A stretch of DNA of 64,000 nucleotides, from NCBI GenBank assembly GCA_019115455.1, contig DXDN01000001.1, positions 1-64,000 of the forward strand. Direction: 5' to 3'. Origin of the DNA: Candidatus Eubacterium faecigallinarum. GTDB lineage: Bacteria; Bacillota; Clostridia; Oscillospirales; Acutalibacteraceae. Positions within the stretch are counted from its first letter, which is position 1. Every line of letters begins with the position of its first letter. The notes beneath the pieces are model-generated. The model was not told where the DNA came from. It worked only from the letters and a program-made list of their open reading frames with translations, and ran no database searches. The position numbers were made by a program, and so were the translations under genes. Shown in pieces: positions 1 to 7,934 of the stretch.

Positions 1-2
1 GG

Positions 3-260
3 CTCAACATTGTTCAAGAGCATTATGAAGTACACTATATCGTTTTAAGGGCAAGTAAAGACGAAACTATGAAGCGAGCTATCGAACGCTCAAAGTTAGA
101 CAGAGAAACAAATATTGAATTAGTTGAAACAATGTGGAAGCAATTTTCCAATTTAGGAATCTATGAATTAAATGTTATAGATACAACTACGCATTCAATC
201 AAAGATACTGTTTCAGCAGTAAAAGAAAAAATAGTAAGCGGTACGGCTTTACTATTTTAG
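3..260 (+). CDS. C-terminal part of a P-loop (AAA/kinase-like) protein, cut by window edge
   Basis: The frame is open from the first bases of the window, so the internal ATG at 69 is unlikely to be the true start. The visible 85 residues include HYIVLRASKDETMKRAIER, which resembles the lid region that follows the beta strand 'yivL.as.e...eR' in small P-loop kinases and AAA_33-type ATPases (chloramphenicol phosphotransferase, tunicamycin-resistance family). The Walker A part lies outside the window, so the family is a tentative reading and the substrate is unknown. Base composition is AT-rich compared with the core genes after 1990, which fits accessory DNA. Confidence 0.5.
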   Translation, partial: LNIVQEHYEVHYIVLRASKDETMKRAIERSKLDRETNIELVETMWKQFSNLGIYELNVIDTTTHSIKDTVSAVKEKIVSGTALLF

Positions 261-265
261 ACAAT

Positions 266-300
266 TCCAGTTTTTAGAACTGGAGAAATTCCAGTTTGAC
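266..300. repeat. Inverted repeat plus left copy of TTCCAGTTTG repeat
   Basis: TCCAGTT at 266-272 pairs with AACTGGA at 278-284 around a five-base loop. TTCCAGTTTGAC follows directly at 289-300. This sits between the upstream P-loop gene and the GNAT gene. Confidence 0.6.
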
Positions 301-312
301 GGAGTGATGGAT

Positions 313-756
313 ATGAAAATTAGAGAAGTGGATAAGAATAAAAAGCAGTTTATATCATTATTGTTATTAGCTGATGAGCAGGAGAATATGATTGACCGTT
401 ATATTGAAAAAGGTACTATGTATGTACTTGAAGATGGTAATGTAAAAGCTGAATGTGTTGTCACTGATGAAGATAATGGAATACTTGAAATTAAAAATAT
501 TGCAGTCGATCCTCAAAATCAAGGAAAGGGCTATGGGAAAGCTCTAATTGATTTTCTTGCCAGTAAATATGCAGATGAATATTCTGTTTTGCAGGTTGGA
601 ACAGGTGATAGTCCATTGACGATACCATTTTATGAAAAATGTGGATTTGTTCGATCTCACAAGATTCCGAATTTCTTTACTGACAATTATGACCACCCAA
701 TTTATGAGGGCGGTGTACAACTAATAGATATGGTATATTTGCAAAGACATATATAA
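313..756 (+). CDS. GNAT family N-acetyltransferase
   Basis: A 147-residue protein with the GNAT fold. The acetyl-CoA pyrophosphate loop is visible as QNQGKGYGKALIDFL (Q/R-x-x-G-x-G/A form), preceded by the strand LEIKNIAVDP and followed by the late motif IPFYEKCGF. The family transfers an acetyl group from acetyl-CoA to an amine, peptide or antibiotic; the substrate here cannot be told. I prefer the ATG at 313 because GGAG at 301-304 lies eight bases upstream; GTG at 304 is inside that ribosome binding site. The gene stands alone between two copies of a 12-base repeat (289-300, 758-769) and is followed by a terminator. Its AT-rich codon use differs from the core genes, so it was probably acquired. 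Confidence 0.85.
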   Translation: MKIREVDKNKKQFISLLLLADEQENMIDRYIEKGTMYVLEDGNVKAECVVTDEDNGILEIKNIAVDPQNQGKGYGKALIDFLASKYADEYSVLQVGTGDSPLTIPFYEKCGFVRSHKIPNFFTDNYDHPIYEGGVQLIDMVYLQRHI

Positions 757-1320: not shown

Positions 1321-1369
1321 AAAAAAGAAAAAACGCCGGAAACCCTTGATTTTACTGGGTTTTCCGGCG
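1321..1369 (-). terminator. Terminator downstream of tRNA-Arg
   Basis: On the minus strand a 12-base-pair stem (1357-1369 with 1334-1345, one bulge) is followed by a long T-run (the A-run at 1321-1333). It ends the single-gene tRNA-Arg transcript. Confidence 0.8.
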
Positions 1370-1380
1370 GAGTTTTTGGC

Positions 1381-1453
1381 GTTCCCGAGGTGATTCGAAC
1401 ACCCGACCTACCGCTTAGGAGGCGGTCGCTCTATCCAGCTGAGCTACGGAAAC
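1381..1453 (-). tRNA. tRNA-Arg (anticodon CCT)
   Basis: A complete 73-base cloverleaf. The acceptor stem GTTTCCG/CGGGAAC pairs with one G-U, the D arm contains TAGCTCAGCTGG, the anticodon stem ACCGC/GCGGT encloses loop CTCCTAA with anticodon CCT, and the T arm holds GTTCGAATC. The 3' CCA is not encoded, unlike the tRNA-Glu and tRNA-Met nearby. It has its own promoter (1472-1500) and terminator. Its first half is 32/34 identical to the tRNA half at 1537-1576, although the acceptor sequences differ. It may be a replacement gene brought in by a mobile element. Confidence 0.93.
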
Positions 1454-1471
1454 ATCTTTGAAATCTATTCA

Positions 1472-1500
1472 ATTTTAGGCTTAGATTAACTCATTGTCAA
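1472..1500 (-). promoter_or_regulatory. Promoter of tRNA-Arg
   Basis: On the minus strand TTGACA (1500-1495) and TAAAAT (1477-1472) are separated by exactly 17 bases. The start would fall about 12-18 bases before the tRNA 5' end at 1453. This is a near-consensus sigma-A promoter inside the DNA between the tRNA half and the full tRNA. Confidence 0.75.
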
Positions 1501-1536
1501 TCACTTTTCCTCAAAAGGCGGTCGTTATAACATATT

Positions 1537-1576
1537 CTTAGGAGGCGGTCGCTCTATCCTACTGAGCTACAAGCGC
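1537..1576 (-). pseudogene. 5' half of a tRNA-Arg(CCT), broken just after the anticodon
   Basis: Read on the minus strand it begins GCGCTTGTAGCTCAG, continues through the D arm and the 5' side of the anticodon stem, and stops after CTCCTAAG. The expected GCGG that should close the anticodon stem is replaced by AATATG. Positions 1537-1570 match 1414-1447 of the intact tRNA-Arg at 32 of 34 bases, but the acceptor sequence is different, so this is a separate gene and not a local duplication. The cut point in the anticodon loop is a known preferred site for tyrosine recombinases, so I read it as the chromosome side of an attachment site. Confidence 0.75.
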
Positions 1577-1632: not shown

Positions 1633-1707
1633 TGGTGACCCGGACGGGAATTGAACCCGTGTTACCGCCGTGAAAGGGCGGTGTCTTAACCTCTTGACCA
1701 CCGGGCC
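1633..1707 (-). tRNA. tRNA-Glu (anticodon TTC)
   Basis: The acceptor stem GGCCCGG/CCGGGTC, anticodon stem CCGCC/GGCGG with loop CTTTCAC, and T loop GGTTCAATTCC are all present. The 3' CCA is encoded at 1635-1633. It is transcribed together with the tRNA-Met, which ends two bases upstream. Confidence 0.95.
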
Positions 1708-1709
1708 GT

Positions 1710-1786
1710 TGGTGGCTTTAACTGGATTCGAACCAGTGACACTGCGGGTATGAACCGCATGCTCTAGCCAACTGAGCTATAAAGCC
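1710..1786 (-). tRNA. tRNA-Met (anticodon CAT), elongator type
   Basis: The acceptor stem GGCTTTA/TAAAGCC is fully paired, so this is not an initiator tRNA. The anticodon loop is TTCATAC, typical of elongator Met, whereas tRNA-Ile2 usually has CTCATAA. The 3' CCA is encoded. Confidence 0.92.
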
Positions 1787-6989: not shown

Positions 6990-7934
6990 ATGTCACTGAA
7001 AGACGACATACTTAAAGAGCTGATAAACAGCGGAGATTATATAAGCGGACAAGCACTGGCTGAAAAATTTGAAAAGAGCAGAGCCGCCGTATGGAAAGCT
7101 GTTAAAAGTCTGATAAGCGACGGTTACAGCATTGACGCCGTTACCAACAAGGGCTACATTCTCACCTCGGGCAATAATGTTTTGAGCGCCCGTAGTGTGA
7201 AAGCTTATATGGAGAAAGAAACAGACGTAATATATTTACCCAGCATTGACTCAACAAACAACTACTGCAAAAAACTCCTTGCCCAGGGGAAAGAGGGGAC
7301 ATTTCTTGTGGTCAGCGACTGCCAGACAAGCGGAAGGGGCAGGCAGGGAAAAAGCTTTTACTCCCCGCCCGGTTCAGGCGTATACTTCAGTCTGGTAATC
7401 CGTCCGCACACAACGCTGCAAAATTCCGTAACAGCAACTACTGCCGCAGCAGTGGCGGTATGCAAAGCAATAGAAAAGCTGACAAACAAAGCGCCCAAAA
7501 TAAAATGGGTAAACGACGTGTATCTTGATGGTAAAAAAATCTGCGGAATACTTACCGAAGCGATAACAAATTTTGAAGATTCAACAGTTGACAGTGTTAT
7601 AATCGGCATAGGCATAAACATTTCCACCTCGTCATTCCCTTCAGAAATCACGAACGCAGGCTGTCTTGACGCGGACGTAAACAAGAATAAGCTGGTGGCG
7701 CTGACCGCTGACTATCTGTTGACAACCGCTGTAAGCGGATACAACGATTTTATTGACTACTATCGCAGTCACTCAATTATTATCGGCGAAAAAATTAAAT
7801 TTATTAAAGACTCTCAGGTAACATATGCCACGGCAACCGCCATAGATGAAACGGGAGGGCTTGAAGTGGAGCTGGAAGACAATAGCCGCATAGTCCTAAG
7901 AAGCGGAGAAATCACCATAAGAAAAATCGACTGA
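6990..7934 (+). CDS. birA: Bifunctional biotin-[acetyl-CoA-carboxylase] ligase / biotin repressor
   Basis: A 314-residue BirA of the long, repressor-bearing class. Residues 1-60 form a winged helix (ISGQALAEKFEKSRAAVWKAVKSL). The ligase core shows SIDSTNNYCK, the biotinyl-AMP loop GRGRQGKSFYSP, and KIKWVNDVYLDGKKICGIL. The C-terminal cap follows (residues 265-314). It attaches biotin to carboxylase subunits and, with biotinyl-AMP, represses biotin genes. No biotin genes occur in this window. An AGAAGG ribosome binding site precedes the ATG, and a bidirectional terminator follows at 7951-7987. Confidence 0.96.
   Translation: MSLKDDILKELINSGDYISGQALAEKFEKSRAAVWKAVKSLISDGYSIDAVTNKGYILTSGNNVLSARSVKAYMEKETDVIYLPSIDSTNNYCKKLLAQGKEGTFLVVSDCQTSGRGRQGKSFYSPPGSGVYFSLVIRPHTTLQNSVTATTAAAVAVCKAIEKLTNKAPKIKWVNDVYLDGKKICGILTEAITNFEDSTVDSVIIGIGINISTSSFPSEITNAGCLDADVNKNKLVALTADYLLTTAVSGYNDFIDYYRSHSIIIGEKIKFIKDSQVTYATATAIDETGGLEVELEDNSRIVLRSGEITIRKID

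Follow-up and report, generated by a model that had tools for sequence, protein, structure and literature searches.

Why should half of a tRNA gene lie directly beside a complete tRNA gene of the same specificity? This arrangement is found in a stretch of 64,000 nucleotides from Candidatus Eubacterium faecigallinarum (assembly GCA_019115455.1, contig DXDN01000001.1, here called the window), whose first base is also base 1 of contig C7 of a genome of 1.71 Mb in 27 contigs (G000). On the minus strand we read in the following order: tRNA-Met, tRNA-Glu, the 40-base 5’ half of a tRNA-Arg (1576-1537), a linker of 83 bases, a complete tRNA-Arg(CCT) (1453-1377) and a terminator. We consider it very probable, from sequence comparison, that the window holds the right attachment site (attR) of a family of tyrosine-recombinase elements that integrate in the anticodon loop of tRNA-Arg(CCT) genes, split their target and bring along a substitute gene. 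The features at this site are the following:

1537 to 1576, minus strand: host tRNA-Arg(CCT), 5’ half only, with the break behind the anticodon loop (chromosome side of attR); identical over this part to the uninterrupted gene of the relative G023
1537 to 1544, minus strand: 8-bp crossover core CTCCTAAG (whole anticodon loop plus one base), common to the left attachment site (attL) and attR as judged from the C7 and C17 junctions
1454 to 1536, minus strand: linker of the element right end, AATATGTTATAACGACCGCC..., containing the promoter; its hexamers are conserved and its spacer varies in 18 distinct right ends
1495 to 1500 and 1472 to 1477, minus strand: promoter upstream of the complete tRNA, with -35 TTGACA, 17-bp spacer and -10 TAAAAT
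1377 to 1453, minus strand: complete element-borne tRNA-Arg(CCT) with encoded CCA (ARAGORN, Rfam)
1414 to 1421, minus strand: second copy of the core inside the element-borne tRNA, a potential new chromosomal attachment site (attB)
1321 to 1369, minus strand: intrinsic terminator of the element-borne tRNA, GC-rich stem and T run (direct reading)

The half gene reads GCGCTTG...GACCGCCTCCTAAG, ends after the anticodon loop and is followed by AATATGTTATAAC. The complete gene received a single call (1377-1453 by ARAGORN, 1380-1453 by Rfam, both on the minus strand) at 63.3 bits against a gathering score of 29. The acceptor stems of the two tRNAs differ; a 23-bp stretch up to the anticodon loop is common to both. 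The original prediction, made from the letters of the window, had described a 5’ half at 1537-1576 cut after the anticodon, which is borne out by our reading of the sequence and by the intact gene in G023. Its promoter at 1472-1500 and terminator likewise hold. Its complete tRNA-Arg(CCT) at 1381-1453 was confirmed by ARAGORN and Rfam except for the border, since a start at 1381 omits the encoded GCCA and the true position is 1377.

It had also been proposed to search relatives for the undisturbed GCGCTTG... tRNA, and this gene was found in G023: an uninterrupted tRNA-Arg(CCT), GCGCTTG...CCTCCTAAG CGGTAGG...CAAGCGCGCCA, preceded by the same tRNA-Met and tRNA-Glu. As for the missing 3’ half, it was located in the genome of the window on another contig (G000:C17, around position 918), and the two halves from C7 and C17, when joined, are identical to the intact G023 gene. 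The target tRNA gene is thus split at the anticodon, as in islands of the Islander type, with its 5’ half on C7 and its 3’ half on C17. The prediction had advised a look to the left of the window for the 3’ half and an integrase gene. Contig C7 begins at window base 1, so that there is no sequence further left to read; the 3’ half was found on C17, and no integrase was seen in the G000 copy. The C17 and C7 junctions have only CTCCTAAG in common, that is the seven-base anticodon loop and one further base. Beyond this core the element ends in ...CCCCTCGGGGGCTT on the left and in AATATGTTATAACG on the right, and therefore there is no half tRNA at either end able to restore the target. Neither the left end CTCGGGGGCTT nor the right end AATATG is tRNA sequence and the target remains split, so that the restoration seen in Islander-type integration is absent. 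Judging from the joined sequences, the host gene would become whole again if the element were excised precisely. Joined flanks yield a canonical tRNA-Arg(CCT) in G000, G005, G435, Monoglobus, Suipraeoptans (with the outer half) and G048.

The identity between G000 and G023 is uneven on the two sides of the site. The C17 side is 99.3% identical over 2.5 kb beyond the joined gene and 92% identical over 4.9 kb, the C7 side 80% identical over 1.95 kb. The high identity on the 3’ side (G000:C17 917-5836 against G023:C37) and the low identity on the 5’ side suggest a more recent exchange on the 3’ side, next to the tRNA.

The right end of the element is not restricted to the window. The exact string CCTAAGAATATGTTATAACG is present in 43 stretches of the genome_contigs collection, comprising gut Clostridia, Lachnospiraceae and Erysipelotrichia-type records (Massilimicrobiota, Longicatena), isolates included. 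The junction of CCTAAG with AATATGTTATAACG recurs in 43 stretches from other genomes, which together with the intact gene in G023 argues that the junction in the window did not arise by chance. Including the window we counted 45 right ends, and judged the 30 that extend at least 175 bp downstream. ARAGORN found a CCT tRNA in 27 of these 30, a count in which L081 is taken as intact, yet is a hybrid of an element 5’ half and a host 3’ half. Of the remaining three, L075 and L088 have a further element inserted and L082 carries a deletion. Linker, promoter, tRNA and terminator keep a constant order and spacing in 27 of the 30, across many genera. The host 5’ halves that receive this nearly identical element end comprise 37 distinct sequences and fall into two structural classes, with 25 and 16 of the 45 by the rule of our script. 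By the same rule 41 of the 45 right ends follow a tRNA 5’ half; L060 follows a class I half when inspected by eye, L074 and L079 follow what look like tRNA 5’ halves with inserts, and L081 follows other sequence. The host halves of L079 and L074 are broken up by repeated small hairpin sequences (TTACTCGCTTTGCTCGTAA type).

Among 18 distinct right ends the -35 hexamer is unchanged over 6 columns and the -10 hexamer is either TAAAAT or TATAAT, apart from one deleted copy; the 17-base spacer contains 62 minority cells. Right ends shorter than 166 bp are excluded from this count, and one of these, L092, has TTGTCA. Since the right ends are related to each other, the conservation of the promoter is to be taken as support and not as a test with independent samples.

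Complete copies show what kind of element the right end belongs to. We found one of 50,513 bp in Suipraeoptans intestinalis 68-1-5 and one of 50,232 bp in a circular record of Monoglobus pectinilyticus. The Monoglobus copy encodes ParA/ParB, MobC and a relaxase, PcfB, a VirD4 protein of the CD1115 family, PrgI, a VirB4 protein of the CD1110 family, a sortase, a CHAP protein and a tyrosine integrase, and carries tet(O/32/O) and tet(40). This gene set we take to be that of a Tn1549-like integrative and conjugative element (ICE). The conjugation module (relaxase, VirD4, VirB4), ParA/ParB and the tyrosine integrase are likewise present in Suipraeoptans according to a reading of its open reading frames (ORFs). 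The integrase, a protein of 487 aa with its gene some 350 bp from the left end, shows 98% identity between both copies; at five further left-end loci (L143-L147) it is 98-100% identical over the part present.

Besides these, much shorter forms were observed. In G435 a form of 617 bp consists of both ends and the tRNA and has no ORF of at least 120 aa. Eubacterium coprostanoligenes ATCC 51222 (G005; L039 4107-7206) harbors a form of 3,099 bp with a gene of the Lsa family of ABC-F ribosomal protection proteins between the ends, in which no integrase was found. Both retain the two att ends and have no integration or transfer genes, as is the case in cis-mobilizable elements (CIMEs), and the Lsa-family gene implies that short forms could move resistance genes. 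The G000 copy looks non-autonomous, or else broken by the contig ends, and is probably a CIME-like derivative of a Tn1549-like ICE of about 50 kb.

The link between the integrase and the carried tRNA extends beyond this family. The generic pattern of a broken half followed by a complete CCT tRNA occurs in 9 of 391 genomes of the class, with several unrelated linkers, and homologues of the integrase (E ≤ 1e-60) occur in 9 of the same 391. Both co-occur in five genomes (hypergeometric P ~2e-7). By inspection, eight of the nine homologues (G469, G590, G048, G720, G756, G726, G671, G114) lie on elements with a complete tRNA-Arg(CCT) at the attachment end. G469 and G590 have the ends of the family, G048 has its ends on two contigs whose joined flanks give a tRNA-Arg(CCT), and in G720 and G756 the contigs stop short of the far end of the element. 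Two more homologues were found in a search of 398 genomes of the phylum and 318 relatives of G1017. In G1017 a broken half of a tRNA-Arg(TCT) is followed by a complete tRNA-Arg(TCT); in G1199 (L235 ~800-1082) a complete CAT tRNA, classified as Met by ARAGORN, comes after two stacked broken halves and adjoins the integrase homologue. The far ends of the elements in G1199 and G1017 were not found. In most relatives the integrase adjoins the attachment end.

Altogether, 10 of 11 integrase homologues in these three sets of genomes have a complete tRNA at the attachment end of their element (eight Arg(CCT), one Arg(TCT), one Met/Ile-type CAT). As far as can be read from these loci, the anticodon type of the carried tRNA follows that of the target, the outer half in G1199 excepted. 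Residues R211, K280, H355, R358 and Y392 of the integrase, which we presume to be catalytic, are invariant in the 10 aligned proteins, and this fits an active tyrosine recombinase. Searches for a viral relationship gave no match: the viral_contigs collection contained neither the right end nor the attP join (attP, the attachment site of the element) nor a relative of the integrase, and no phage record covered 80% or more of the element end. On these results we rejected a phage origin. Among plasmid records one covers most of the query, and this is the Monoglobus record, labelled plasmid.

The site, its core, the failed restoration, the completeness of the carried gene, the stacking described below and the link to one integrase clade can all be read from sequence; the following steps would connect them. 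The integrase would recombine attP with attB in the anticodon loop. The first ~160 bp of the element contain a promoter and a complete tRNA-Arg(CCT), with the terminator just behind, and the carried gene, if expressed, would supply AGG decoding for as long as the element resides in the host. A circular form would have the junction ...GGGGGCTTCTCCTAAGAATATG..., and the short forms may be mobilised in trans. Since the element supplies a whole gene, attP would not need to match half of one particular host tRNA, and many divergent tRNA-Arg(CCT) genes would therefore be open to entry. The carried gene contains the same core and could serve as attB for later elements, which would give rise to stacks of broken 5’ halves. 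We think it likely that this integrase clade has exchanged repair of the target for its substitution, each lineage carrying a complete tRNA gene whose anticodon type agrees with that of its target (Arg CCT, Arg TCT, Met/Ile CAT), with a host range set by the anticodon loop alone. The element would then be its own next landing site, and one chromosomal spot would thus record successive invasions as stacked 5’ halves.

Such stacks are frequent. We considered 44 right ends in 43 loci, of which 41 had enough upstream sequence, and found a further core within 260 bp upstream in 14 of them: in 12 cases this is clearly a tRNA 5’ half, in L072 it is degenerate, and L079 comes after a complete tRNA. 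In G432 four starts are located within ~340 bp. In L088 a family member has inserted in the tRNA that the family itself carries; in L089 and L085 the tRNAs entered are those that other families carry. The left flank of the Suipraeoptans copy fits the outermost 5’ half, whereas the inner half does not match it. This suggests that recombination between cores can remove resident elements, leaving about 100 bp behind. A hybrid tRNA with an element 5’ half, a host 3’ half and mismatched acceptor strands was observed in Massilimicrobiota An134 (L081; G429:C46 ~7733-7900) and is likely the scar of such a recombination.

What does the insertion mean for the host? ARAGORN places one tRNA-Arg(CCT) among the 43 tRNAs of G000, and this is the one of the element; a pattern search returned the broken half and the element copy only. 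A second complete tRNA-Arg(CCT), which would have spoken against a replacement, was hence not found among these 43. Together with the uninterrupted gene in G023 and the 3’ half found on C17 this supports the earlier suggestion that the element carries a replacement tRNA gene, and the only tRNA-Arg(CCT) of the host now sits on a mobile element. When the same pattern was applied to 19 further genomes, it mostly returned just the broken half and the element copy. The view of AGG as a rare codon, in contrast, did not hold, since AGG accounts for 21.5% of Arg codons in window ORFs of at least 120 aa and is therefore not rare in the window. A tRNA-Arg(TCT) is present in G000, which could, we assume, in principle read AGG by wobble. 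The proposed dependence of AGG decoding on the element is therefore likely in view of the sole tRNA-Arg(CCT), but not proven to be absolute.

Several observations weigh against the reading of a family that breaks and substitutes its target. The two element ends of G000 are located on separate contigs, the middle lies outside the assembly, the 916 bp of its left end contain no integrase, and the integrase loci elsewhere in G000 are at best 22-26% identical to that of the element. G060 has an integrase homologue without a complete tRNA (one of the 11), and the outermost half in G1199 reads CAC, the inner one CAT. A second real CCT tRNA exists in G436. G441 has lost part of the element tRNA, and the pattern matched no other CCT tRNA there. 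From these two genomes it follows that the replacement tRNA is not always kept or needed. The hybrid in L081 and the lack of the attP join in viral_contigs belong here as well.

These points have to be compared with other explanations of the locus. In ordinary tRNA-site integration the complete tRNA would be the target restored by an attP fragment and the half would be the displaced fragment. According to PMC4383910 such integration is typically recognised by a fragment and a complete tRNA close to an element, and the 23 bp shared by the two tRNAs would fit. However, the complete tRNA has another acceptor stem and its own promoter, attL and attR share 8 bp only, and the same complete tRNA travels with the element in dozens of different hosts. 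The reading is contradicted by the empty site in G023 and by the true 3’ half at the other element end on C17, and we regard it as very unlikely. Equally unlikely is accretion, in which an earlier, unrelated element would have left the complete tRNA behind: older 5’ halves are often stacked at the site, but this does not account for the constant order and spacing of linker, promoter, tRNA and terminator in so many genera.

Slightly less improbable, though still unlikely, is that the tRNA is cargo for AGG-rich element genes, as proposed for phage tRNAs, and lies beside a broken gene incidentally. The two ICEs do contain 5.7-6.2 AGG per 1000 codons, but this is no more than in the G000 window (8.6 per 1000), and in the absence of an enrichment we rejected codon supply. 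The 617-bp form moreover retains the tRNA without any ORF of at least 120 aa, and elements at TCT and CAT-type sites carry a tRNA of the TCT and CAT type, respectively. An artefact of assembly or binning, with a chimeric contig, might be suspected because the junction lies close (1.5 kb) to a contig end and the genome is in 27 contigs. It is the least probable explanation of all, as the junction is also found in the isolates E. coprostanoligenes ATCC 51222, S. intestinalis 68-1-5, Massilimicrobiota An134, Acetivibrio MSJd-27 and VE202-01 and in the circular Monoglobus record.

How does target substitution compare with known systems? Tn1549-like ICEs of Clostridia resemble the complete copies in gene content and probably include TnK10, the carrier of tet(O/32/O), which is described in PMC10696588 as transferable to B. 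fibrisolvens and Roseburia. According to PMC8138268 the integrases of Tn1549 and Tn916 insert in AT-rich DNA without strict sequence specificity; the family described here is different, as its ends follow tRNA halves at one anticodon loop. According to PMC4383910, PMC8371274 and PMC5704250, integration in tRNA genes restores or does not disrupt the target. Class A islands of Islander, with an anticodon site, likewise have a tyrosine recombinase crossover at the anticodon loop (PMC4383910, PMC8371274). Their attP, however, holds a target fragment and restores the target, whereas here 8 bp are shared, the target is left in two pieces and the element carries an entire replacement gene. pTN3-like archaeal integrases, which use a 5’-half attB, have an element end that supplies tRNA sequence and promoter as in our case (PMC8371274), but here nothing is rebuilt. 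CIMEs and accretion of the ICESt1 type (PMC5704250) share with our family the retained att ends, the loss of integration and transfer genes and the stacking at one site; ICESt1-type accretion uses an attR that includes the end of the target gene, whereas here the landing site is the tRNA gene carried by the element itself.

Relative to the tRNA-site integration described in these papers, the novel aspect would be substitution of the target in place of its restoration. We recognised no account of an element that splits a tRNA gene while carrying a complete substitute in the open-licence PMC literature; an earlier description elsewhere is possible. Non-restoring integration can explain how one ICE lineage with 98-100% identical integrases is found in dozens of divergent tRNA genes across orders, and this family carries tetracycline and ABC-F resistance genes. 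Island finders keyed to a fragment and a restored gene would miss or misread it; Islander rejects candidates below 2 kb, and the complete gene here lies 83 bp from the fragment. The order of past invasions can, in turn, be read from the stacked halves.

The remaining features of the locus, inside the element and next to it, are:

1 to 1536: right part of the element within the window; the contig starts at base 1
1150 to 1290: repeated TTAGCA/TGCTAA motifs, candidate arm sites for integrase or excisionase; similar motifs occur at the left end
831 to 1010 (approximately), minus strand: short ORF inside the right part of the element
304 to 756, plus strand: GNAT acetyltransferase ORF, element cargo
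1 to 260, plus strand: partial kinase-like ORF cut by the contig start, element cargo
1633 to 1786, minus strand: host tRNA-Glu(TTC) and tRNA-Met(CAT), conserved chromosomal neighbors of the target, in an order kept in G023, G028 and G018

At the locus L090 a different pair of GNAT and kinase genes adjoins the same right end as the GNAT and kinase-like cargo of the window (1-756).
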